Source: a virus. Taken from it: a DNA stretch of 60,648 nucleotides. The first letter of the stretch is position 1; the number at the start of each line of letters is the position of its first letter. Position numbers and translations under genes: made by a program. Location: positions 1-60,648 of IMG/VR virus record IMGVR_UViG_3300020200_000030; one strand, written 5' to 3'. The notes beneath the pieces were generated by a model, which worked only from the letters and a program-made list of their open reading frames with translations, was not told the origin of the DNA and made no database searches. This document shows positions 36,338 to 57,158 of the stretch, piece by piece.

Positions 36338-37861
36338 ATGTTGAAGTTTACAGTTTCCGAAGATCGCCAGTGGCTCATCATGAGCAATCTTGTCACGGAA
36401 GTAGAAAAAAGACAAATTGAGATTTCTCTAACAAGAAAAGTTCACAATTGGTTTTTCCATCCTCTGGTCAAGAAAAAAATCTGGGATGGAAACATTTGTT
36501 TTGTAGAAAAAAAAGGTTTGGTTTGGAGAGTTCCGATAGGTCTATGGATGGAGATCTTTAACATAGGAAAAGAATTCGGATATGAAGTTCAGATAGAAGG
36601 CCTGGATTCATTGCTACTTTCAGATCTGACTTTGGAGGAATTCCAAAATTGGGTGAACGAATTTTTTGAAAACAAAGAAATAAAACCAAGGGACTATCAG
36701 ATTGAGGCCGCCTGGAAGATCGTCAAATATCGTTATTCGGTTTCTGAGATAGCAACTTCATCTGGTAAAACACTCATTGCCTTCATGATTTTGACTTTTC
36801 TAAAATCTAGGAATTTGATTCGAAAATTCCTGATGGTGGTTCCCAGCACCAATCTTGTTTTTCAAGGAAACGACGACTTTTTGGATTATGGGATCGGGGA
36901 ACTTGGAGTAAAGATACAACAGATAGGTGGGGGTAGCAAGATAAGAGAAGGCTGTGACATTATCATCGGAACATTTCAGTCTTTGGTGAAACAAGAACAA
37001 GATTTCTTTGAGGGCATAGACGCCGTTTTTGTGGATGAGGCCCATCACACTAATTCTATGTCCATCAAGAAAATCATGTCGAAATGTATGGGGACCGGGT
37101 GGCGTTTTGGACTAACCGGGACTCTTACCAAGAGGGGAACGGCAGACCATCTTACGATCCAGCAATTTTTAGGTCCGGTCATTGTGGAGATATCCCCCGA
37201 CTTTTTGTTCCAAAACAAACACGCTACTCCGGTGGCAATCAAAGTTGTGATGCTCGACTGGTTAGATTCTGAAATCAAGGACAAACTAGCCCAGCTTAAA
37301 TTCACCTCCCAAAATTTAGAAGGAACAGAAATTTACAACATTGAAAGAAAGATGGTGGTGGAAAGCGAAAAGAGACTTGCCTACATCGTGGATTTTGTGG
37401 CCAAAACTTCTAAAAATTCTTTGGTTCTTTTTCAATCCGTTAAGGACGAATATGGAAAACAAATTTGGAATCGTCTGAGAGAACTAGATTCCTCGAAAGA
37501 GGTTTTCTATGTGGACGGCGACACGGATGAAAAATTGAGGGAAGAGTACAAATCCAGAATGGGGGATGGAGAAAATAAAATCCTTGTTGCCACTTTCGGA
37601 ACCTTTGCCACCGGTATTTCCATCAATAACCTTCACAACATTTTTCTGGTAGAATCCTACAAGAGCGAGATTCTGATCAAGCAAAGTCTCGGCAGAGGTA
37701 TGAGGTTGATGGAGGGAAAGGAGAAGGTGAATGTCATCGATTTTGTGGATGATTTTTCCTCCCCAAAATACACAAATTATTTAATGAAACACGGGCAGGC
37801 AAGAATTGAAATTTACAAAAACGAAAAATTCAAGTACCAAATTTTCAAGGTAAAGCTGTAA
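36338..37861 (+). CDS. uvsW: UvsW-like DNA/RNA helicase
   Basis: A 507-residue superfamily 2 helicase like T4 UvsW (503), which unwinds R-loops and branch-migrates recombination intermediates, helping the switch from origin- to recombination-dependent replication. An N-terminal UvsW-specific domain of about 110 residues is followed by KPRDYQIEAAW (Q-like motif), Walker A ATSSGKT at 139-145, DEAH at 233-236, GLTGTL (motif III) and C-terminal motifs LVATFGTFATGISI and QSLGRGMR. The gene is in tandem with uvsY, as in T4. Complete and apparently intact. Confidence 0.93.
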   Translation: MLKFTVSEDRQWLIMSNLVTEVEKRQIEISLTRKVHNWFFHPLVKKKIWDGNICFVEKKGLVWRVPIGLWMEIFNIGKEFGYEVQIEGLDSLLLSDLTLEEFQNWVNEFFENKEIKPRDYQIEAAWKIVKYRYSVSEIATSSGKTLIAFMILTFLKSRNLIRKFLMVVPSTNLVFQGNDDFLDYGIGELGVKIQQIGGGSKIREGCDIIIGTFQSLVKQEQDFFEGIDAVFVDEAHHTNSMSIKKIMSKCMGTGWRFGLTGTLTKRGTADHLTIQQFLGPVIVEISPDFLFQNKHATPVAIKVVMLDWLDSEIKDKLAQLKFTSQNLEGTEIYNIERKMVVESEKRLAYIVDFVAKTSKNSLVLFQSVKDEYGKQIWNRLRELDSSKEVFYVDGDTDEKLREEYKSRMGDGENKILVATFGTFATGISINNLHNIFLVESYKSEILIKQSLGRGMRLMEGKEKVNVIDFVDDFSSPKYTNYLMKHGQARIEIYKNEKFKYQIFKVKL

Positions 37862-37896: not shown

Positions 37897-38379
37897 ATGC
37901 CTCCATTACTTAAATTCGATGAATTCAATTTCATAAACGAAAATTCAACCCGGAAAAAATGGGAAGATTTGGAAGCTAGAATTAGAGCCAAAGTTCCCGA
38001 AATAGGTGGGGAAACTTGGAGAGGATCCTCGAGCTGGACGGATGCCAGTATAGACAACCCGGAAGGAGCTCTAGGAAGAATTTTGGGTGGTATTGGAATT
38101 GGTCTCTCAAAGGCTGGCAAAGCAATTTTTGGTGCCATTGGAGATAAATTTAATTCGGGTTCAAAAGGCGAAGAGGAAGCTTTCAGCCGGTGGGGTGAAA
38201 ATATCCAGTCCAGCGGTAAGAACAAACAAAAAGATTATGAAGATTTTTACACCAAATCCATTTACTCCGGCAAAGAAACTTTCGGTCCTGATTTTGATGT
38301 TGAAAAACCCAGAACCAGAGAACAGAGAAAATACCGAGATTATCTTAGAAGATCAAGATCATATTTTGACATAGACTAA
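37897..38379 (+). CDS. Putative head cargo protein with capsid-targeting-like N-terminus
   Basis: A 160-residue protein of unknown family. It starts MPPLLKFDEFNFINE then NSTRKK, which fits a targeting peptide (F-D-x-F) ending in an I-x-E site comparable to the [LI]-x-E cut by the T4 gp21 prohead protease. After that comes a charged region, a Gly-rich hydrophobic stretch (LGRILGGIGIGLSKAGKAIF, about residues 65-90) that could be an amphipathic or membrane-active helix, and a strongly basic end (RTREQRKYRDYLRRSRSYF). Basic, small internal proteins are typical of T4 heads. Preceded by a late-type element; the next gene starts one base after its stop. Confidence 0.5.
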   Translation: MPPLLKFDEFNFINENSTRKKWEDLEARIRAKVPEIGGETWRGSSSWTDASIDNPEGALGRILGGIGIGLSKAGKAIFGAIGDKFNSGSKGEEEAFSRWGENIQSSGKNKQKDYEDFYTKSIYSGKETFGPDFDVEKPRTREQRKYRDYLRRSRSYFDID

Positions 38380-39318
38380 ATGATTGCTAATTTTAACCAA
38401 TTTATGAGATTAAACGAAGGCGGATCTGCCATCAAATCCTCACGTAGAATTCGAGAGGACGAAGCACAGTCCACACTGGACCACATCGAATCAACTTTAT
38501 TTCCCCTTTTAGGTGGTGGTAATTTCGATGAAGATTTTTTGCTCATCGGAAGTATTGGAAAAAAGAAAAATCCGGAAGATGACTCGGGAGACGTTGATTT
38601 AGGTATTTCAAAGGAATTTCTTGTGGATCAAATGGGTTCTACACCCGAAAATGTTCTGGTAGATTTGGAACAATATTTGAAATCAGAATTACCAGAATTT
38701 CTTGGATTTGAACCCGAAATGAAGTTAATGAAGGGATTGGGTGTACTTTCTATCGGATGGCCTATTGGAGGAGAGCCTGAAAGAGGTATTGTTCAGCTCG
38801 ACCTTATTCCTCTATCCGATATGGATTGGGCAAGGTTTATTTATTACTCTCCAGACTATCGTCTGGACGAATCTGTTTACAAATCTGCCCATAGAAATTG
38901 GCTATTTCAGGCCATTCTTTCCTCTTTGAAAGAGGTAGAAAGTGTGGACGATGATGGAAATATCATGGATTACGAAGGTTATGTTTTGAGATTAAGCGAA
39001 GGAATTTTCAAATCAAAAAAATCATATCGTGGAATCAAAAAACCCAGACTTTCCCGGCCACAAACCATAGAAGGAACAGCCCAATTTATTACCAACGATC
39101 CAAAAGAGGCAGTAGAACTTATGTTTGGGCCAGGAATTAGACCCGATCAAGTAAAAACATTCGAAGATGCCTGGTCCCAAGTTACTTCTCTCAATTATGT
39201 TTATAACGATAGATTTCCAGAAATCATGGAAGACTTTGTCAGATATCTAGAAAATGCTAAATTACCAATTCCCTCCGAGGTACAGGCAAAACAAAATTTG
39301 GTGCCAGATGATGTTTGA
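38380..39318 (+). CDS. Pol-beta-superfamily nucleotidyltransferase with capsid-targeting-like N-terminus
   Basis: A 312-residue protein. The start MIANFNQFMRLNE then GG matches the targeting peptide with an L-N-E/G cleavage-like site. The nucleotidyltransferase signature follows: GS at 57-58 (LLIGSIGKKK), D71 and D73 (SGDVDLG), and a third acidic residue D141 (IVQLDLIPL). Next is DWARFIYYSPDYR and a basic SAHRN, a pattern seen in phage nucleotidyltransferase-like proteins. Such enzymes transfer a nucleotide to RNA, a protein or a small molecule; the target here is unknown. It overlaps the next gene by 11 nt and belongs to a cassette with the ligase/NMNAT fusion. T4 injects Alt in a comparable way, but similarity of role is inference. 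Confidence 0.65.
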   Translation: MIANFNQFMRLNEGGSAIKSSRRIREDEAQSTLDHIESTLFPLLGGGNFDEDFLLIGSIGKKKNPEDDSGDVDLGISKEFLVDQMGSTPENVLVDLEQYLKSELPEFLGFEPEMKLMKGLGVLSIGWPIGGEPERGIVQLDLIPLSDMDWARFIYYSPDYRLDESVYKSAHRNWLFQAILSSLKEVESVDDDGNIMDYEGYVLRLSEGIFKSKKSYRGIKKPRLSRPQTIEGTAQFITNDPKEAVELMFGPGIRPDQVKTFEDAWSQVTSLNYVYNDRFPEIMEDFVRYLENAKLPIPSEVQAKQNLVPDDV

Positions 39319-39736
39319 TCCTTTGTACACGGCCTTGGATTTTTTCCTTGATGGCGATTCCCCCCAGGCGGTCGTCAGAGATGGAAAGTTGGTGCTGTTC
39401 AAAACAGAAAACGGTTCTTCTGGTTTAATTATCAAAACAAAACACGGGGACAGAAAAATCGTGTTGAACAACGAGGTAATTTACACTTTGGAAAAAAAGG
39501 TCTTCGAATTGATTGATTTCGAAAATTTTGATCCTCCAGGAATTCAGATTTACCTTCCTAAACTTATTTTGGCTTGGAATTCTCCTTTACAGTTAAAATC
39601 AAAGATCTTTGTTAGAAAAATTATCGAAGGAATTAGTCAGGTTATTCATTTGGATCTGGTTGAAGATTTAAACAAAGAAATGGAAAAGGCGTTTGGGATA
39701 TTTACATTTGTAAAGGATCTCCCATTAAATAAATAA
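39308..39736 (+). CDS. Hypothetical protein in nucleotidyltransferase-ligase cassette
   Basis: A 142-residue protein. The frame is open from 39254, but the tandem ATGATG at 39308 overlaps the stop of the nucleotidyltransferase gene and is the likely start by coupling. Beta-rich N-terminal half (GKLVLFKTENGSSGLIIKTK, KIVLNNEVIYTLEKKVF), then a helical half (SKIFVRKIIEGISQVIHLDL). No catalytic motif is recognised. Three nt separate it from the RNA ligase/NMNAT fusion gene, so it may be a partner of one of the enzymes. Confidence 0.5.
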   Translation: MMFDPLYTALDFFLDGDSPQAVVRDGKLVLFKTENGSSGLIIKTKHGDRKIVLNNEVIYTLEKKVFELIDFENFDPPGIQIYLPKLILAWNSPLQLKSKIFVRKIIEGISQVIHLDLVEDLNKEMEKAFGIFTFVKDLPLNK

Positions 39737-39739
39737 ATT

Positions 39740-41653
39740 ATGGCAGGAATTAATCACCTATATGATATGTACAATAAGAAAGGAGCGGAGTTTACTCAAT
39801 CTCTCTTTTCTCAATTTGTTACCATCAACGAAAAGATGGATGGGTCTGCCTTTTGTTTTGAAAGAGATCTGGACACTGGAAAATTTAATTTTTATCGTAG
39901 AGATCAAAGAAATCCCATAACATTGGTCGACAGGACGTTGATGAAGTATTATGAAAAACCAATCCAGTACATCGAATCCTTGCCTCCTGATATTTTAGAG
40001 AAAATTCCAAGAGGATGGAGATTCGGTTTTGAATATTTTGCCAACACAAGTCCGGTTGAAATTGTTTACGATAGAATTCCCAAGAATCACCTCATTCTTT
40101 CTTTTGTCCACAAAATGGATTTACACGGAAAGATTGCCAAAACAATTCAACAAAAAGACAAGTTGGATACCTGGGCAGATCTTCTCGGAGTGGAAAGAAG
40201 TCCAATCATTTTCCAAGGATATCTGAATGAAACACAAAAAGAGCAGCTGACCGAATTTTTGGCAACCCCATTTCCACAGTTGGTTTCCCGTTTTCAAACA
40301 CAGAGTTTTGTTAGATTCATCATTTCTGTTTTGAATCCAAAATTGAAATCATCCGCCCTGAACGATGATTTAGATAAAGACGTCGAAGGAGTGGTATTCA
40401 GATTTGGAGAACCAAACTCGGAGAACGAAACTGTGCTGGCCAAAATGGTAGATCCACTGTTCACCGATTTAGCCAAAACTAAATATCAAGAAAAGAAGGA
40501 TAAAAAGCCTTCTGATTTTCTTGGGATCACACTTTTGGACGTCATGAATTTTATCCTTCAACAAGGTGTAGATTCTTTCGAGGTTGAAGGTCAGGGGGAA
40601 GACGAAAGATATATTTCTTTCATTTCTGATGTTTTTGCTAAATTTTTGGATGAAAATTCCGATAAATATAAAGGGACAGACTTTGAAGAACCTGATTATT
40701 TGAAGAAGCCCGAGTTCAGGTTGAATCGGGATTTAATCAGGGATCGTAGGGTTGCTAAATTTGTCGAAGAAGACGAGGCATACGAGTCACTGTACAAGCT
40801 GATGTTAAATTCATTCAGAAAACTTAAAACCCGTGCTTCTGGCATTGTTACCTCTGGAACTCTGGCCCAGCTAAATTTGCTAATTCAAGAAATTAAAGAT
40901 CATATCGAACGTCCTAAAAAAGCAGTCAACGAATCAGAATTTGTTAGTTTTTTGGATTTTCAAAAGGATTCAAAGCCCAATGTCCAATATGTGTTGGAAG
41001 AAAGCGAGGATTCAGAGAAGAACGAGAATCCTTTACTTTCATTCGATGATTTCATTTCAAAATTAGAAAGCATCGACCAACACTCAAATAAAGGAGAAGA
41101 GCCGTTGGTTGAGAAGGAAGAAGACAAAAAGATCAACGTTATTGTGGGTCGTTTTCAGCCTTTCCATTTGGGTCATCTGAATATGGCTAAAAAATTACAC
41201 GAGAAAAATAAATTACCTTCTTTTGTGATCGTTGTTTATCCGGGACACAATAAGAGCGGAAAATCCCCATTTGGCGAGCAAACAATAAATCAGTACATGG
41301 ATGCTGTGGTGAAAGAACATGGTGATGTGTTAAAAGACTACATGATTGTTCCAAGGGGTTTGTTGGGATCTGCGGTGAATAAATTGGTTGAGATGGGATT
41401 TGAACCTCATCTTGTTGGTGCAGGTGAAGATCGACAGGACGATTATGCCAAACAGATGGAATACATCAAAAAAACAGAGTTGTTTGATAAATTACCGGAA
41501 GGATTCAAATTGGTTGAAACACCAAGAAGCACATCTGCCACAGAGGTGAGATCTAAATTGGAAGAAGAAGATTATTCCTCATTGAAAAAGATGCTTCCAA
41601 AATCGGTTCTCAATTTATATTCGGGTTTGGTCTCAGAGCTGAAAAAAAAATAG
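39740..41653 (+). CDS. RNA-ligase-like / NMN adenylyltransferase-like fusion protein
   Basis: A 637-residue two-domain protein. Residues about 25-270 look like an ATP-dependent RNA ligase: K32 in EKMDGS (motif I, covalent nucleotidyl-lysine), WRFGFEYF (motif III), VEGVVFRF (motif IV) and LAKMVDP (motif V). Residues about 469-637 look like a NadM-type cytidylyltransferase-like domain: GRFQPFHLGHL (HxGH motif), VYPGHNKSGKSPF and STSATEVR at 597-604 (the I-S-x-T/A-x-V-R motif). NMNATs make NAD+ from NMN and ATP. Between them, SFDDFISKLE (434-443) resembles the targeting peptide of the neighbours. The fusion suggests RNA repair linked to NAD or adenylate chemistry; this is inference. Confidence 0.75.
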   Translation: MAGINHLYDMYNKKGAEFTQSLFSQFVTINEKMDGSAFCFERDLDTGKFNFYRRDQRNPITLVDRTLMKYYEKPIQYIESLPPDILEKIPRGWRFGFEYFANTSPVEIVYDRIPKNHLILSFVHKMDLHGKIAKTIQQKDKLDTWADLLGVERSPIIFQGYLNETQKEQLTEFLATPFPQLVSRFQTQSFVRFIISVLNPKLKSSALNDDLDKDVEGVVFRFGEPNSENETVLAKMVDPLFTDLAKTKYQEKKDKKPSDFLGITLLDVMNFILQQGVDSFEVEGQGEDERYISFISDVFAKFLDENSDKYKGTDFEEPDYLKKPEFRLNRDLIRDRRVAKFVEEDEAYESLYKLMLNSFRKLKTRASGIVTSGTLAQLNLLIQEIKDHIERPKKAVNESEFVSFLDFQKDSKPNVQYVLEESEDSEKNENPLLSFDDFISKLESIDQHSNKGEEPLVEKEEDKKINVIVGRFQPFHLGHLNMAKKLHEKNKLPSFVIVVYPGHNKSGKSPFGEQTINQYMDAVVKEHGDVLKDYMIVPRGLLGSAVNKLVEMGFEPHLVGAGEDRQDDYAKQMEYIKKTELFDKLPEGFKLVETPRSTSATEVRSKLEEEDYSSLKKMLPKSVLNLYSGLVSELKKK

Positions 41654-41677: not shown

Positions 41678-42211
41678 GTGAAAAATTTATTCAATTATAC
41701 AGATTTTCTATCCAAAAATTTGAACGAGGCCGATGGCTTTGGAACTATGCCCTTCTTGCTTAAAAAAGAAGGTGATGTTTATTACTATTTTTTCCAATTG
41801 GAAAGAGAAAAAGAAGACCCAGAGGGATTTTGTCTTATGATTGGTAAGTATTCACAATACGAGTCGATGGATGGACCTAAAAATTCATATGCTGTTTTGA
41901 ATATCAACAAAATTGGAACAGAAGTTATTGAAGACATAGCCATCAACAAGGGAAGCTTGCCAGAAAAAAACAAAGTTTCTTTCAAATTATCCGGGGGTGA
42001 ACTCTCAAGATTATTCGAACAAATTGGAAAGTGTATTTCCAGCTACCTGGAGAAAAATCCAAAAATCATCAGAATGGTTGACGAAATGAATTTTAACTTG
42101 GATATCAAGAACTATGGAGCATATTCTAAATCTCTGCTTTCTTTTGCTTTAGGAGAAGATTGGCACATGCAAGATGGATCGTCAAAAAAGATTTACCTTT
42201 GGAATCGATAA
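41678..42211 (+). CDS. Putative head cargo protein with capsid-targeting-like N-terminus
   Basis: A 177-residue protein starting with GTG at 41678. The first residues MKNLFNYTDFLSKNLNE then ADG match the shared peptide and end in L-N-E/A, very like T4 internal-protein cleavage sites. The rest (EGDVYYYFFQLEREKEDPEG ..., SFKLSGGELSRLFEQIGKCI) is an alpha/beta domain without a recognised family; its LGEDWHMQDGSSKKIYLWN end is distinctive. Late-type element just upstream. Function unknown; packaging with DNA is inferred. Confidence 0.52.
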   Translation: MKNLFNYTDFLSKNLNEADGFGTMPFLLKKEGDVYYYFFQLEREKEDPEGFCLMIGKYSQYESMDGPKNSYAVLNINKIGTEVIEDIAINKGSLPEKNKVSFKLSGGELSRLFEQIGKCISSYLEKNPKIIRMVDEMNFNLDIKNYGAYSKSLLSFALGEDWHMQDGSSKKIYLWNR

Positions 42212-42483: not shown

Positions 42484-42512
42484 AAAGGCAACTTTAAGAG
42501 TTGCCTTTTTTT
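42484..42512 (+). terminator. Rho-independent terminator after histone-like gene
   Basis: A perfect 10-bp stem AAAGGCAACT / AGTTGCCTTT with a 5-nt loop and a run of T residues. Confidence 0.92.
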
Positions 42513-44609: not shown

Positions 44610-46379
44610 GTGAAACATATCAAAAATTTTACAATTTTTCTTTTCGAATCTGAAGAATTCACTAAAGAGGACTATTTGAACTTTAAACAATATACAAATA
44701 ATAGCAAGAAAGGGATTCCGTCAACAAAGGAACAAATGGAAGCAATGAGAAAATATCATAGAATGAAGCGTAAAGGTTTGGATCCAATTGACCCTTTCCG
44801 AGAAAAGAAGGGGGAAAAAGAAGAATTCACGGAAGAAGATCGCCGAAACTTTCAGGAATATATTAAGAAGATTTATGCTAAACCAAGATTAGAACCAACG
44901 CAAAAAGAAAGAGAAGCATATAATAAATATAGTAGGCAAAAAAGAATATTGGGTCATTCTCCTTTTAAAAGACAAGAAGAAGAATTCACGGAAGAAGATT
45001 ACCGAAACTTTAAGGAATATAATAGGAAGATTTATGCTAAACCAAAATTAGAACCAACGCAAAAAGAAAGAGAAGCATATAATAAATATAATAGGATCAG
45101 AACGAAAGGATTGGATCCAATTGCTCCTTTTCGAAGAAAAGAAGAAGAATTTACGGAAGAAGATTACCGAAACTATCGGGAATATAGTAGGAAGTATCAA
45201 TCTAACCGAATCAACACTAAACCAAGATTAGAACCAACTCAAAAAGAAAGAGAAGCATATAATAAATATCAAAGGCAACGAAAAATATCGAATCCAATTG
45301 CTCCTCTTAAAAAACAAGAAGAAGAATTCACGGAAGAAGATTACCGAAACTTTAAGGAATATAATAAGAAGATTAATGCTAAACCAAGATTAGAACCAAC
45401 GCAAAAAGAAAAAGAAGCATATAATAAATATAATAGGATCAGAACGAAAGGATTGGATCCAATTGCTCCTTTTCGAAGAAAAGAAGAAGAATTTACGGAA
45501 GAAGATTACCGAAACTATCAGGAATATAATAGGAAGATTAACGCTAAACCAAAATTAGAACCAACGCAAAAAGAAAGAGAAGCATATAATAAATATTATA
45601 GGATACGGAGATTATCGGGTCTTCCTTCTATTAAAGGACAAGAAGAAGAATTCACGGAAGAGGAATACCGAAACTATCAGGAATATAATAAGAAGGTTAA
45701 TGCTAAACCAAGATTAGAACCAACTCAAAAAGAAAAAGAAGCATATAATAAATATCAAAGAATGCTCACGAGAGGATTGGATCCAACTGCTGCTTTCACA
45801 GGAAAAATTAGAATTATAACAGCAACCGGGGATTGGTCAAAATTAACGCTAGATGGAAGCCCTTTGTTTTTGTCCCATGCTAACACTTATTTTGTAACAT
45901 TCTACAAAAATCCCACAAAAGAAATGATAAAGAGACTCCTTGGGGATAGTGACCAGCCGTTTACTTGTGACCCAAAGGAAGCAAGTCAGGAAATTTTTGG
46001 TGGGGATTTTCCGTACATCAATAAAAAAGAGGGATTGATATTTGCTGCAGATCCTAAATATTCTCCAGCAGATTATGAAAATGAATTGGTTCGAACAGCG
46101 AAAACCATATGTGAAAACCCAGACGAAAACGAAAATATGGATGGGGAATATGCTTTAAATATTTTAGAGAATGGCTGGGAAAACTTCACACCTGAACACA
46201 TTAACCACTTGATTTTGCTTGCTAGTGAAAGTGCAAAAAAACCATCCGCGTATAATATCTTTTCTAAGGATGATATAAAAAGAATTGATCTTTTTTTGAA
46301 ATTTGCTAAATATAATTTAAAAGGTCAACCATTAAAATTAATGGATCCTAGAATAGAAATTAAATTCAAAGTAGTTTAA
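44610..46379 (+). CDS. Seven-repeat protein with targeting-like N-terminus
   Basis: A 589-residue protein starting with GTG. The N-terminus MKHIKNFTIFLFE then SEEF fits the shared peptide with an L-F-E site. Seven tandem units of about 53-59 residues follow (residues about 15-398). Each starts E-E-F-T-E-E-D-Y-R-N and contains AKPRLEPTQKEREAYNKY, then a basic linker such as RIRTKGLDPIAPFRR. The first unit is divergent and the others are nearly identical. Units are highly charged and helical with Tyr at regular spacing. A unique C-terminal domain (about 400-589, IITATGDWSKLTLDGSPLF ...) has no recognised family. It may be an internal scaffold or DNA-binding cargo; function unknown. Confidence 0.6.
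   Translation: MKHIKNFTIFLFESEEFTKEDYLNFKQYTNNSKKGIPSTKEQMEAMRKYHRMKRKGLDPIDPFREKKGEKEEFTEEDRRNFQEYIKKIYAKPRLEPTQKEREAYNKYSRQKRILGHSPFKRQEEEFTEEDYRNFKEYNRKIYAKPKLEPTQKEREAYNKYNRIRTKGLDPIAPFRRKEEEFTEEDYRNYREYSRKYQSNRINTKPRLEPTQKEREAYNKYQRQRKISNPIAPLKKQEEEFTEEDYRNFKEYNKKINAKPRLEPTQKEKEAYNKYNRIRTKGLDPIAPFRRKEEEFTEEDYRNYQEYNRKINAKPKLEPTQKEREAYNKYYRIRRLSGLPSIKGQEEEFTEEEYRNYQEYNKKVNAKPRLEPTQKEKEAYNKYQRMLTRGLDPTAAFTGKIRIITATGDWSKLTLDGSPLFLSHANTYFVTFYKNPTKEMIKRLLGDSDQPFTCDPKEASQEIFGGDFPYINKKEGLIFAADPKYSPADYENELVRTAKTICENPDENENMDGEYALNILENGWENFTPEHINHLILLASESAKKPSAYNIFSKDDIKRIDLFLKFAKYNLKGQPLKLMDPRIEIKFKVV
44652..45800 (+). repeat. Tandem coding repeats, about 161-176 bp period, seven units
   Basis: Units marked by GAATT[CT]AC at about 44656, 44822, 44982, 45147, 45323, 45488 and 45649. 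The long near-identity at DNA level of units 2-7 indicates recent duplication or gene conversion. Copy number could vary between relatives. Confidence 0.88.
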
Positions 46380-47421: not shown

Positions 47422-48807
47422 ATGAAAAACAAAATTTTAAACTTCGACCAATTTTCTTCGATATATGAATCTGAATTTTATATTAAAGAATCTGAATCTT
47501 CTGGAAGTAAAATAGACATAGGGCTTGATGATCTAGCGGTTAGTTCTGAACAAATAGCTGATGTAATGGCAGAGCTCGATCCTAAAGCAATTAAAGAAAG
47601 TGGGACAGGTATTAGTGCATACGGTTCAATTAAACCGGGAGAAAAAGGAGACAGGGTTAAATGGCTTCAAGGAATACTTGGATTTGAAGGTAAAGATGTA
47701 GATGGGGATTTTGGGCCAAAAACAATAAAAGCCGTTAAAGATTTTCAAAAAAATAATAAACTCACTGTAGATGGAAAAGTTGGTGTCCAAACTTTGCAAA
47801 AAATGGTTGATGTTTTGAAAGTTCCCACTGAAAAACAAAGTGAAATAAATAAATTGTTAGAAGATTTAAGGGCAAAAATGCCTCCGGAATTGTTAGCTCT
47901 TTACGAAGTTTACATCGTTAATACGGATAAATCCGGAAATAATAAAAAAATAATTTTAATACCAAAAAAAGGTGCTCAAGAAAAAGTACAAGCAGCAAGA
48001 GAAAGTGGTATGGCAGAAGGATTAAAATTGTTACTTGAGGGGGTTAAATATGCTGGCAAGGCAATTATTTGGACTGGAGCCGCTATTGTTCTAGTTACTT
48101 TAGAAACAGCTAATGCTATGATATCCGGAATCACTGCTATTTCTAAAATGGTATTGGGTGGAGCTGCTTATGTTGCAGGTGTAGCAGTTCAGGGACTTAT
48201 GGAATTCGGAAAATGGATTGCTAGCGTGGGAGAAAAAGCTTGGGAGGGCCTCAAAGATGCATCTACAGAAATTTGGAAAGGTGTATGTGATGCTGTTACA
48301 CTTCTTGGTAAAGCATCTCTCAAAATTGTATATGGCTTTATACAAGGAGCCCAAGCCGTTGCTTATACACTCGCTGGTGTTGCATTAACAATTTTCCAAG
48401 CAGCAGCTAACACGTTTGATGCAGCCGTCAAAGGTGTAATCTCAGCTGCAAAAGAAGTAAAAACTTTTGTAGTAAACGCAGTTAAAGCAATTGGTGATGG
48501 AATCACAAAGGTGAAGGAGACACTAAAAGCAGGTTTTCAATATGCTGTTGATGTTACAAAGAAAGCTTTGCAAGGGGCTATTCAAGGGGTTAAGAATTTT
48601 GGAAAAAGCGTTGTTGCAGCAACAGAAAGAGCTTACAGCGGGGCTGTTAGCTGGCTATCATCTATGTATGAAAAAGGAAAGAAATTCTTTGAATCTACTA
48701 TGTATGAAGTCTATGGTTCAGAATTCTTAAACGAAAATCGTCATTTAATAGAATTTGGAGAACTTGAGTTTTCTTTATTATCTGATGACTTGGATTGGAG
48801 ATTGTAA
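47422..48807 (+). CDS. Peptidoglycan-binding protein with long hydrophobic helical region and targeting-like N-terminus
   Basis: A 461-residue protein. It starts MKNKILNFDQFSSIYE then SEF, matching the shared peptide with an I-Y-E site. Residues about 69-135 are a PG_binding_1 domain (GEKGDRVKWLQGILG, DVDGDFGPKTIKAVKDFQKN, LTVDGKVGVQTLQKM). Residues about 206-425 are Ala/Gly/Val-rich, with long hydrophobic or amphipathic helices (IIWTGAAIVLVTLETANAM, MVLGGAAYVAGVAVQGLMEF) in apolin-like or tape-measure-like style. No lytic catalytic motif is seen. A protein that is packaged, binds peptidoglycan and inserts in membranes could form a DNA-ejection conduit, as the ejected proteins of other phages do. 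That role is inference. Confidence 0.62.
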   Translation: MKNKILNFDQFSSIYESEFYIKESESSGSKIDIGLDDLAVSSEQIADVMAELDPKAIKESGTGISAYGSIKPGEKGDRVKWLQGILGFEGKDVDGDFGPKTIKAVKDFQKNNKLTVDGKVGVQTLQKMVDVLKVPTEKQSEINKLLEDLRAKMPPELLALYEVYIVNTDKSGNNKKIILIPKKGAQEKVQAARESGMAEGLKLLLEGVKYAGKAIIWTGAAIVLVTLETANAMISGITAISKMVLGGAAYVAGVAVQGLMEFGKWIASVGEKAWEGLKDASTEIWKGVCDAVTLLGKASLKIVYGFIQGAQAVAYTLAGVALTIFQAAANTFDAAVKGVISAAKEVKTFVVNAVKAIGDGITKVKETLKAGFQYAVDVTKKALQGAIQGVKNFGKSVVAATERAYSGAVSWLSSMYEKGKKFFESTMYEVYGSEFLNENRHLIEFGELEFSLLSDDLDWRL

Positions 48808-54493: not shown

Positions 54494-54688
54494 ATGGCAA
54501 ACATCTTTTTACATCACCCTCTACAGGATGGAGAGCTCCATGAGGAATCATCTGTACTTTCTGTCTCTAAATTGAAATTCAATAAGGTAACAAAAGTAGA
54601 AAAAATATCAGGTAGGGAAGGAAAAGTTTACGATCTGCGAATTTCTGAGATTCCTAATTACTCTACGAATGTATCAATTGTTCACAAT
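54494..54688 (+). other. Split intein C-fragment in nrdA
   Basis: 65 codons from a new ATG to the C-terminal His-Asn (VSIVHN). Block F is GKVYDLRISEIPNYSTN. The next residue, extein position +1, is Gly rather than the Cys/Ser/Thr needed for normal splicing. Confidence 0.85.
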
Positions 54689-56290
54689 GGGGGTGGAAAG
54701 AGAAAGGGAAGCTTCGCCATTTATCTAGAACCTTGGCATGCTGATGTTGAAGATTTTCTGGACTTAAGAAAAAATACAGGTAAAGAAGAAAGAAGAGCCA
54801 GAGATTTGTTTTTGGCTTTGTGGATTCCCGATTTATTTATGGAGAGGGTTCACGAGGATTCTACCTGGTCTTTGTTTTCTCCATCCGAAGTTCCCAATTT
54901 ACATGAAAAATTTGGAAAGGAATTCAATGCCGCTTATTTGGAAGCAGAAGAGGCTGGGAAGGCCAGAAAAACAATTAAGGCCCGGGATTTGTGGGGCAAG
55001 ATTTTGGATTCACAAATTGAAACCGGAACCCCATATATTTTGTATAAGGATGCGGCCAACAGGAAATCCAACCAACAAAATTTAGGTACAATCAAATCTT
55101 CTAATTTGTGCACAGAAATTATAGAATATGCCAGTAAAGACGAAACTGCAGTTTGTAACTTGGCTTCGATCGCGGTGAATAAGTTTCTGAAATCTACAGA
55201 CGCAAGAACCTCCAAGATTGCCAGAAAAAAATGCGAGGTAGATCACGAATTGCTTTACAATGTTGCCTACCAAACAACATTAAATTTGAACAAGGTAATT
55301 GATGTTAATTTTTATCCAACCCCAGAAACTAAAAATTCGAATTTCAGACACCGCCCAATTGGCATTGGAATTCAGGGTTTAGCTGATCTTTTTGCCATTA
55401 TGGGATTGCCATTTACATCTCCAGAGGCAAGAAAAATCAACTCTGAAATTTTTGAAACCATTTACTTCGCTTCTATGTCTGCTTCTGTGGATTTGGCTAA
55501 GAAAGAAGGTCATTATGAGAGTTTTCCTGGATCTCCTCTTTGCCAAGGCAAATTCCAATTTAACCTCTGGGACGTTACAGATTCCGAACTTTCTGGTAGA
55601 TGGGACTGGGATAAATTGAGAAAATCTGTGATGAAACACGGATCCAGAAATTCTTTGCTTCTGGCACCCATGCCAACCGCGAGCACAGCTCAAATTATGG
55701 GAAACAATGAAGCATTTGAACCTTTTACCTCCAATATTTATACAAGAAGAACCCTGTCGGGAGAATTTATCATCATCAACAAATATCTTGTGAAAGATCT
55801 AATCAATTTGGGTCTTTGGAATGAAGATGTTAAAAATTTGATTATCATCCACAAAGGATCTGTTCAAAACATTCCAAACATCCCCGATGACATCAAGGAG
55901 GTTTACAAAACGGTTTGGGAAATCAAACAGAAAGATCTTATTGAGATGTCTGCAGAAAGAGGTAGATTCATTTGTCAATCCCAATCTCTCAACCTTTTCA
56001 TTGAAGGTGTTAACGCTGCCAAATTAACTGCCGCCCATTTCCATTCTTGGAAATTGGGTTTGAAAACTGGCATGTATTATCTTCGCACTAAGTCCGCTGT
56101 AGACGCCATGACTGGACTTGGGATAGACGTTTCTAAATATCAGACAATACCAAAAAAAGAAGAGCCCAAAGTTTTCAAAAAGACTTTGGAAACCCCAAAT
56201 GAAGAATTACAAGTTCTGGCCAACCAAACTTTAGAAGATTTAAGTTGTAGTTTGGACAACCCAGATGATTGTATCGCCTGTGGATCTTAA
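54494..56290 (+). CDS. nrdA: Split-intein C-terminal fragment fused to NrdA C-terminal half
   Basis: A 598-residue protein. Residues 1-65 are the intein C-fragment ending VSIVHN. From residue 66, GGGKRKGSFAIYLEPWH continues NrdA, with NLCTE and VCNLAS (active-site Asn/Cys/Glu and redox Cys), LLAPMPTASTAQIMGNNEAF and a C-terminal CIACGS (redox C-x-x-C). Exteins together are 288 + 533 = 821 residues, a full-length R1. The gene is in another frame from the first half and is separated by 32 nt with its own leader (AAATTCATAAA before ATG), like the leader before the first half. The split is real, not a sequencing frameshift, since both intein halves are complete. Confidence 0.93.
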   Translation: MANIFLHHPLQDGELHEESSVLSVSKLKFNKVTKVEKISGREGKVYDLRISEIPNYSTNVSIVHNGGGKRKGSFAIYLEPWHADVEDFLDLRKNTGKEERRARDLFLALWIPDLFMERVHEDSTWSLFSPSEVPNLHEKFGKEFNAAYLEAEEAGKARKTIKARDLWGKILDSQIETGTPYILYKDAANRKSNQQNLGTIKSSNLCTEIIEYASKDETAVCNLASIAVNKFLKSTDARTSKIARKKCEVDHELLYNVAYQTTLNLNKVIDVNFYPTPETKNSNFRHRPIGIGIQGLADLFAIMGLPFTSPEARKINSEIFETIYFASMSASVDLAKKEGHYESFPGSPLCQGKFQFNLWDVTDSELSGRWDWDKLRKSVMKHGSRNSLLLAPMPTASTAQIMGNNEAFEPFTSNIYTRRTLSGEFIIINKYLVKDLINLGLWNEDVKNLIIIHKGSVQNIPNIPDDIKEVYKTVWEIKQKDLIEMSAERGRFICQSQSLNLFIEGVNAAKLTAAHFHSWKLGLKTGMYYLRTKSAVDAMTGLGIDVSKYQTIPKKEEPKVFKKTLETPNEELQVLANQTLEDLSCSLDNPDDCIACGS

Positions 56291-56311: not shown

Positions 56312-56530
56312 ATGACAAATATTTTAATCTTTAACACCAAAAAACACACCCTCCAGGTAGAATCTGAATCACGACATCTAAGAGGAGTGTACTCTGAAAT
56401 CATGACCATTCAACTTTCTCAAGCCCATTACAATTTTTATGAGGTTTATCAAGAAAGCCAAGATTCAAGAAGAGTTCCCCTTTTCAGATTCCCAATTCAA
56501 AATACGATTATTAAATATGAGCACAGTTAA
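56312..56530 (+). CDS. Small hypothetical protein
   Basis: A 72-residue protein between nrdA and adk: ILIFNTKKHTLQVESESRHL at the start, QLSQAHYNFYEVYQESQDSR in the middle. No family is recognised, no signal peptide. Its end overlaps the adk start by 14 nt (adk ATG at 56517), which suggests translational coupling to the kinase and a role in the nucleotide pathway or just close packing. Confidence 0.5.
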   Translation: MTNILIFNTKKHTLQVESESRHLRGVYSEIMTIQLSQAHYNFYEVYQESQDSRRVPLFRFPIQNTIIKYEHS

Positions 56531-57158
56531 AAAATTCGACGAATTTGTCCACCTTCACGAAAGAGAGCTTCCTGATTTTCAGGGCAAGATCTTAGTAATC
56601 ATGGGCCCTCCTGGATCCGGGAAAGGGACCTTCTCAAAAAGACTTTCTGAAAAAGAAGGTTACAATCATATTTCTACTGGGGATTTGATTCGAAAATCGA
56701 AGGACCCAGAATTAAAAGCGAAGATTGCAAAGGGCGAGTATATTGACGATGGAACGATGGTATCAATGCTCAGAAAAGAACTTAAAAAGTTAGATCCTGG
56801 AATGGGAATCATTCTCGACGGATTTCCTAGAACGGTTAAACAGGCTGGAATGTTGGACTCTTTGCTCGGTAAAATGGGATTAGGTCTAAGCCACACAATC
56901 TATTTGGATTTGGACGAAAAAACCGCTACGGATAGGATTTTATCCAGAGCCGAAAAAGAAAATCGTGAGGATGACAAAGATCCAGAGGTAATTAAAAAAA
57001 GATTCCAAACCTACACGGAAAAAACTGCTCCTCTGATCGATCTGTACACCAAAAGCAGAAAATTGAAAAAATTCGACTCTGGTGTAGGAATAGATCGTTT
57101 ATACAAAAAAATTGTGAACCAACTGAATCTCAAAAAAACCGATTCTAAAACAAATTAA
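56517..57158 (+). CDS. adk: Adenylate kinase with capsid-targeting-like N-terminal extension
   Basis: A 213-residue nucleoside monophosphate kinase. The P-loop GPPGSGKGT is at residues 30-38, about 23 residues later than in ordinary adenylate kinases. The extension MSTVKKFDEFVHLHE then RELPDFQG matches the targeting peptide with an L-H-E site. NMP-binding ISTGDLIRK, IILDGFPRT, and RAEKENREDDKDPEVIKKRF (short LID, no zinc fingers) follow. Adk interconverts ATP+AMP and 2 ADP. The frame is open upstream from 56439, but 56517 is the natural start. Packaging into the head would be unusual for an adenylate kinase; it is inferred from the peptide. Confidence 0.85.
   Translation: MSTVKKFDEFVHLHERELPDFQGKILVIMGPPGSGKGTFSKRLSEKEGYNHISTGDLIRKSKDPELKAKIAKGEYIDDGTMVSMLRKELKKLDPGMGIILDGFPRTVKQAGMLDSLLGKMGLGLSHTIYLDLDEKTATDRILSRAEKENREDDKDPEVIKKRFQTYTEKTAPLIDLYTKSRKLKKFDSGVGIDRLYKKIVNQLNLKKTDSKTN

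Follow-up and report, generated by a model that had tools for sequence, protein, structure and literature searches.

The gene at positions 39740..41653 of the window (the whole 60,648-nucleotide stretch that was analyzed, a 60.6-kb record of a T4-like phage) encodes a 637-aa protein in which an RNA ligase-type domain is fused to a HIGH-superfamily nucleotidyltransferase (HIGH-NTase) domain. Among its relatives, decay of the ligase lysine goes hand in hand with decay of the HIGH motif, and intact copies are associated with a neighboring gene for a Pol-beta-fold nucleotidyltransferase. A three-enzyme module (ligase, HIGH-NTase, and Pol-beta-fold enzyme) is well supported. As a whole, we tentatively read the fusion as a virion-carried enzyme that may process nucleic acid ends together with its Pol-beta-fold partner. 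The initial annotation of this gene did not include the partner, the joint decay, the capsid-targeting-like motifs, or the presence of the pair in further phages. In the literature searched, which took in parts of two surveys, no paper described such a ligase-HIGH fusion.

The gene has an ATG start, and between positions 36338 and 42508 all features given here are on the + strand. The AF2 model of the protein (pLDDT, 79.6) shows two well-folded parts and a disordered linker (aa 391-463; 40910..41128), in which residues 394-461 are mostly below 50 (394-403 and 412-461). The N-terminal half (aa 1-390; 39740..40909), delimited by PF09414, Foldseek, and alignments, consists of a covalent nucleotidyltransferase core of the RNA_ligase type (aa 27-235) followed by a helical extension. 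In the window protein, the Pfam match to RNA_ligase (PF09414, aa 27-235; E 8.7e-5; 23.2 bits) lies under the 27-bit cut-off, which several fusion homologues pass (e.g., 29.9 bits). No DNA-ligase profile in Pfam was matched by the fusion. The best PDB match of this half was T4 Rnl2 (2hvr, E 6.7e-8; 1s68, TM-score normalized to the target 0.55).

The C-terminal domain (aa 464-637; 41129..41650) was assigned to PF01467 and has an NMNAT-like fold. Its CTP_transf_like match (aa 468-508; E 2e-5) is over the Pfam cut-off, and among 49 homologues, 39 match this family and 28 match RNA_ligase on their own at E ≤ 1e-3. NMNAT structures were reached by a profile built from these 49 homologues and by Foldseek, with archaeal NMNAT as the match (4yp5, E 6.8e-6; 1f9a, target-normalized TM-score 0.69). 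Thus, the NadM-like C terminus proposed in the initial annotation is right as to fold and superfamily only, including HxGH; the cut-offs of NMNAT equivalogs were far from reached, and the closest phage families are the "cytidyltransferase" PHROGs 3041 and 395. The archaeal NadM proteins (4yp5, 1ej2, and 1f9a) share the fold and HxGH with the fusion; in contrast to them, its HMMER alignment spans only the first ~55 residues and there is no consistent NadV partner. A full-length structural match was present in BFVD (A0A6J5NWC5 of an uncultured Caudovirales phage; 623 aa; E 5.5e-55; 31% identity), a protein named solely after its own cytidyltransferase-like domain.

The catalytic motifs are in place in both halves. 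On the ligase side, these are motif I (E31-K32-M-D34-G35, in EKMDGS at aa 31-36, with the K32 codon at 39833-39835), motif III (E98), motif IV (E216-G217), and motif V (K235). Where T4 Rnl2 has a second lysine in motif V, the window protein has V237 (AKMV versus IKCK, compared by eye). The HIGH half contains G470-RFQPFH-L-GH479 (GRFQPFHLGH encoded at 41147-41176), K505-SGKSPF, G560-AGEDR565, and S597-TSATEVR604. The motif residues correspond to invariant or near-invariant alignment columns. The signatures named in the initial annotation (the four ligase motifs, the GRFQPFHLGH stretch, and STSATEVR) were all recovered, together with an Rnl2-like predicted fold; KSGKSPF and GAGEDR come in addition. 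Of the checks that it had proposed, structure prediction found both domains in the order described, and so did the profile search, with the ligase match of the window protein under the cut-off. We regard the domain folds and intact motifs as practically certain. T4 Rnl2 (rnlB; PF09414) resembles the ligase half in its catalytic fold and in motifs I, III, IV, and (apart from the second lysine) V, and its gene likewise lies among head genes, beside hoc-inh-uvsW. The window protein differs from it in its weak profile match, the lack of pairwise similarity, and the fusion to a HIGH-NTase.

The fusion is widespread. At least 263 relatives were found in IMG/VR, and 75 of the best 80 retrieved were full-length fusions. 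The carriers are large T4-like phages from fresh and marine waters, many of them on contigs of 100-430 kb. The full-length copy in one huge phage of 462 kb is divergent (33.5% identity), whereas the copies in four huge-phage records of 635-735 kb are ligase only and are missing the motif I lysine. In related loci (L068 7001-9616; L090 2387-5167), one phage has a long, 871-aa version of the fusion, and uvsW is split by an insert resembling an intein or homing element.

Both active-site signatures are kept in 64 of the 77 full-length members that were aligned. With more than 260 relatives, this argues that the fusion did not arise by chance. The initial annotation had named the loss of key residues as a reason to reject its reading. 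The window protein keeps these residues, and such loss is seen in a minority of the members: 13 members lost the HIGH motif, and 10 of these lost the motif I lysine too, which is retained in 67. The lysine was lost in no member with an intact HIGH motif, and the reverse combination was found in three. Defective members carry ENLDG or EMLNG at motif I and FNNGH, FNNGD, FTLGH, or FDNLD at the HIGH motif; since the replacements differ between lineages, several losses are suggested. When the tree is rooted at its midpoint, the defective lineages branch off as a basal grade.

The Pol-beta-fold protein is encoded upstream of the fusion (38380..39318; GSIG..GDVDLG..QLDLIP). It has the hG[GS]x9-13Dh[DE]h catalytic signature and the corresponding fold in an AF2 model (pLDDT, 89.7) with low confidence for the leader and high confidence for the remainder. 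Its Foldseek matches included Pol beta/lambda, TdT, OAS, and CutA; the best E value was modest (2.6e-3), and nearly all of the matches listed were nucleotidyltransferases of the Pol-beta fold. An identity as RlaP was considered and dropped, since no Pfam or NCBIfam model matched at the thresholds used. The gene is present in 62 of the 64 intact loci and in none of the 13 defective ones. It was also not found elsewhere in the whole records behind the defective loci, save for one marginal match of 57 residues. We attempted to count repeated co-losses of this gene on the tree, but the defective lineages are basal under midpoint rooting, so independence is unsupported and the tie to the Pol-beta-fold gene could reflect a single gain. 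The result is an association, not proof of repeated co-loss. The RlaP-RNA ligase repair systems reported for jumbo phages place a Pol-beta nucleotidyltransferase beside an ATP-dependent RNA ligase (PMC7824862). The window locus differs in that its Pol-beta-fold protein is not RlaP by profile, a HIGH-NTase is added, and the proteins are likely packaged.

A leader-bearing gene (37897..38379) occurs in 61 of the 64 intact loci but is missing from every defective one. A conserved 160-aa gene directly upstream of the fusion (39254..39736) is retained in most defective loci too, and a leader-bearing downstream gene (41678..42211) is conserved near the fusion. The uvsW helicase gene (36338..37861) marks the T4-like context (24-rnlB-hoc-inh-uvsW-uvsY in T4), and a single-stranded-DNA-binding protein, UvsY, and UvsW are encoded upstream of the fusion. 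In a consensus scan, a terminator-like hairpin was detected downstream of the unit (42484..42508), with a count not above shuffles. Promoter and terminator scans gave counts no higher than shuffles, and the T4 late promoter TATAAATA occurred once, below the chance expectation of 3.7 sites.

Several proteins of this region start with a sequence that resembles T4 capsid-targeting leaders. In the T4 IPIII leader, residues 4 and 7 target the head and residues 8 and 10 govern cleavage, with gp21 cleaving after L/I-x-E (PMC9026906). The leaders of the window region match the spacing of residues 4 and 7 ([F/Y]xx[F]), and the pattern h-x(1,2)-[FY]xx[FY] was found at 3.24% in the first 12 positions versus 0.50% internally, a 6.5-fold enrichment. 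A predicted N-terminal leader with an L/I-x-E cleavage site (arrow) is present in the Pol-beta-fold protein (MIANFNQFMRLNE↓GG; aa 1-13, 38380..38418, LxE↓G site) and in the neighbors at 37897 (LLKFDEFNFINE↓N), 41678 (LFNYTDFLSKNLNE↓AD), and 47422; leaders of neighboring proteins also include IANFNQFMRLNE↓GG and ILNFDQFSSIYE↓SE. The leader pattern [FY]xxF[IL]xE and the cleavage logic are shared with T4 IPI-IPIII and Alt. The putative cargo of the window differs in including Pol-beta-fold and adenylate-kinase enzymes.

The fusion has no targeting leader at its N terminus (MAGINHLYDMY...). Its capsid-targeting-like motif, NPLLSFDDFISKLES, is internal, lies in the linker (aa 430-444; 41027..41071), and is without the canonical L/I-x-E site. 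It scored 18.7 against a leader profile; the leaders themselves averaged 15.3, and none of the 155,088 internal 15-mers from other ORFs exceeded 16.8. The 230 leaders behind this profile came from the same loci as the test, the pattern used to choose them contained the FxxF core, and de-duplication of related ORFs was crude; the score is therefore a sign of resemblance rather than of function. In 63 of the 77 members, part of the linker ranks within the top 0.1% of the background, which is mostly not so in the defective ones; the motif is thus conserved in active members and weaker or absent in defective members.

A gp21-type (S77) prohead protease (PF03420) was detected in 14 of 17 related records, a count that concerns a region outside what the window itself covers, and it was not found in the record of the nearest relative (G010). 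As independent support, the HIGH-NTases of the cyanophages syn9 (gp184), Syn33, and S-SM1 (annotated start further upstream) begin with MKKFSAFL(T/S/N)E↓A, and that of P-SSM2 with MKSFSQFLTE↓T. One such protein, T4-GC190, was among 41 proteins detected in purified S-SM1 virions (PMC3037559). By analogy, the fusion and its partners are probably packaged in the phage head, the published virion detection being that of the cyanophage relative T4-GC190 only.

More was noted on leader-bearing ORFs. A capsid-targeting-like leader (MSTVKKFDEFVHLHE↓RE) begins at an internal start in the frame of an adenylate kinase (window 56439-57158; NCBIfam E 2e-48), and this enzyme is possibly packaged as well. A 589-aa protein (window 44610-46379) contains about seven degenerate repeats (EEFTEEDYRNFKEYNRK...KPRLEPTQKEREAYNKY) and belongs to no family. 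The 461-aa protein with the leader at 47422 (window 47422-48807) has a peptidoglycan-binding-like stretch (NCBIfam SleB-type) and long hydrophobic segments. Beside the defective fusion of the 462-kb huge phage, a 421-aa protein with a leader (L009 4704-5969; MKFLKSYEEFLNENLILEGG) shows the ligase-like motifs EKLDG and SEGIVF but matches no Pfam family.

The pairing of a ligase-like protein with a HIGH-NTase recurs in other phages. In X1 (Xanthomonas) and Bhz51 (Stenotrophomonas), a Pol-beta-like ORF, a further ORF, a ligase-like ORF (motifs KxDG and EGV(V/I)), and a stand-alone HIGH gene follow each other in the same order as in the window. The HIGH protein is homologous to the window domain (hhalign 99.2%, E 2e-19), but profile comparison revealed no significant homology between the Pol-beta-like ORF and the window Pol-beta-fold protein. 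In cyanophages, T4-GC190 belongs to the same HIGH-NTase family as the fusion C terminus (PHROGs 395 and 3041; BLASTP E 1e-6). Like the fusion, it has a capsid-targeting-like motif ahead of the domain and a ligase-like neighbor, and it is virion associated in S-SM1. It is usually a separate gene with the leader at its own N terminus, whereas the window domain makes up the C-terminal half of a fusion protein whose linker contains the motif.

The ligase-like neighbor of T4-GC190 is T4-GC71 (Pfam DUF6267, PF19782), which has relatives in 471 phage records and, like the window ligase, shows KxDG, QxD, EGxV, and K motifs. DUF6267 lies directly before T4-GC190 in 7 of 11 cyanophages inspected (S-PM2, S-WAM2, Syn33, S-RSM4, syn9, S-CAM3, and S-SM1, but not S-SSM7, S-CRM01, P-TIM68, or S-CREM2). 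In S-PM2, ligase motifs IV and V are in frame inside the annotated cytidyltransferase, ahead of its HIGH domain, and a 591-aa S-PM2 protein in BFVD matches the fusion. Profile comparison (hhalign for DUF6267) detected no sequence homology of the window ligase to T4 Rnl2, DUF6267, or the X1/Bhz51 ligase-like ORFs. Therefore, the ligase link across phages rests on motifs, fold, and gene order, and the recurrence may be convergent.

In an alignment of DUF6267 from eight cyanophages, KxDGA, EGxV, and K are invariant, as in covalent nucleotidyltransferases; Pfam gives no function for this family. The S-PM2 genes p141 and p142 (L130 2526-4305) look like one ligase-HIGH fusion split by a frame change, with KWDGAP in p141 and EGFV and VKIVD, then GRFNPPTTGH, in p142. 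Genes just upstream of the ligase-like gene (L132 1168, L135 1317, L144 947, L014 1123, and L015 1297) contain a loose D-x-V...SxK pattern similar to PD-(D/E)XK nucleases. The idea that a nuclease-like gene regularly precedes the pair was nevertheless discarded, as the motif is loose and BLAST linked solely two cyanophages.

RNA ligase-family enzymes act by AMP-lysine chemistry, HIGH-family enzymes move the nucleotidyl group of an NTP onto a phosphate, and Pol-beta-fold enzymes add nucleotides. Together with the likely packaging, this makes end processing at the start of infection the simplest joint reading. The fusion would then be a bifunctional nucleotidyl-transfer enzyme: its ligase-type domain would load AMP from ATP onto K32 and pass it to a nucleic acid end, and its HIGH domain would carry out the NTP-to-phosphate transfer typical of its family. 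It would share a pathway with the upstream Pol-beta-fold enzyme, in which nucleotides would be added or replaced at an end and the end would be activated and sealed. Packaged by T4-type capsid-targeting motifs, the proteins would enter the cell along with the DNA and might act at the onset of infection, either on RNA of host or phage that is damaged or on the ends of the incoming DNA. We slightly favor a nucleic acid end as the substrate; if so, RNA rather than DNA is our guess, with the balance somewhat on its side. RNA repair, as raised in the initial annotation, is a possible role. Several findings count against the joint reading. A canonical Rnl2 (E ~1e-26) is encoded elsewhere in most of the same phages, often with a further RNA_ligase member, so general RNA sealing is already provided. 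The missing second lysine of motif V, the internal position of the capsid-targeting-like motif in the fusion, the basal grade of the defective lineages, and the negative profile comparisons of the ligase and Pol-beta-fold proteins also weigh against it. Given the separate Rnl2, the fusion probably serves a particular purpose or acts at a particular time.

Until now, an RNA ligase gene near the T4 head genes and a "cytidyltransferase" in cyanophage virions have both lacked an explanation. Joining them as one recurring pair, fused or adjacent, whose active sites are tracked by the gene of a third enzyme makes them a testable system. This suggests a function class for DUF6267 and for T4-GC190, a conserved gene of cyanophages, and it suggests that phages may inject nucleic acid end enzymes ahead of their own gene expression.

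Gap filling, end processing, and nick sealing of the incoming genome by a head-packaged DNA-repair kit, for example after UV damage in water, is an alternative reading. A Pol-beta-fold enzyme plus a ligase follows the logic of short-patch DNA repair, the gene adjoins uvsW and uvsY, and the cyanophage relatives come from sunlit water. However, the nearest ligase folds are RNA ligases, no DNA-ligase profile matched, and to our knowledge the HIGH domain has no role in DNA repair. We consider this reading unlikely, though the best of the alternatives. Rather less probable is a head-packaged end-repair kit of all three enzymes, carried by T4-like phages from cyanophages to huge phages, in which the HIGH domain directly adenylylates 5'-phosphate ends for the ligase. 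By analogy, this would be the same chemistry as the conversion of NMN to NAD; we know of no HIGH enzyme that performs it on such ends.

We would give a similarly low rank to modification, in which AMP-lysine and HIGH chemistry feed one conjugation pathway by which host RNA or protein would be tagged with nucleotides or small groups. Both fusion domains are nucleotidyl transferases; T4 Alt and ModB use NAD, and T4 packages and ejects Alt. A reported precedent from T4 is the attachment of RNA to protein by an ADP-ribosyltransferase (PMC10468400). The fusion, however, is without an ADP-ribosyltransferase domain.

The initial annotation had hinted at a tie of the fusion to NAD metabolism, and a role in NAD salvage or against NADases would make the C terminus an NMN adenylyltransferase that rebuilds NAD+ (NARP2-like, with NadV/NAMPT), the ligase being a passenger or a user of the pathway. 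The NMNAT-like fold, HxGH, and a C-terminal [ST]xxxxR-type motif are in line with this. Of 14 records with an intact fusion, five encode NAMPT, including two (G013 and G014) where the fusion was the sole CTP_transf_like protein found. But the window protein reached 24.3 bits with the NMNAT equivalog TIGR01527 (cut-off, 181.2), and the other NMNAT models in NCBIfam were far below their cut-offs. NAMPT is absent from the other nine records, some of the records being fragments, and is present in all five long huge-phage records with a defective or absent HIGH domain; the distribution thus runs opposite to the prediction. In addition, according to a survey, every NadM phage also has NadV (PMC9503650). 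NAD salvage would also leave the Pol-beta-fold tie and the recurrent ligase pairing unaccounted for. The equivalog scores and the NadV distribution weaken it as the main function: NMN is a possible substrate of the HIGH domain, but it is unlikely that the fusion exists for NAD synthesis, and we rank this reading just below modification. Nothing positive was found for the suggested role in NAD-capped RNA or against NADases, and the proposed counter-defense link found no counterpart among the PADLOC defense families, none of which matched.

Equally improbable is a mainly structural inner-head or assembly protein with leftover enzyme folds, as the defective versions would illustrate: about one-sixth of the members and the ligase-only forms of huge phages keep fold and position without catalytic residues, and a HIGH-domain relative is a virion protein, but most members retain both active sites and activity tracks the adjacent enzyme gene.

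Two further observations concern other genes. In the related phages L117, L118, and L119, an APS-kinase-type kinase is encoded beside a HIGH-NTase of 118-134 aa (GRWQPLHxGH), a separate pair. In the window, the N-terminal ~65 residues of a ribonucleotide-reductase-like ORF (54494-56290), ending in ...NVSIVHNGGG, resemble the end of an intein (SVSKLKFNKVTKVEKI...YDLRI).
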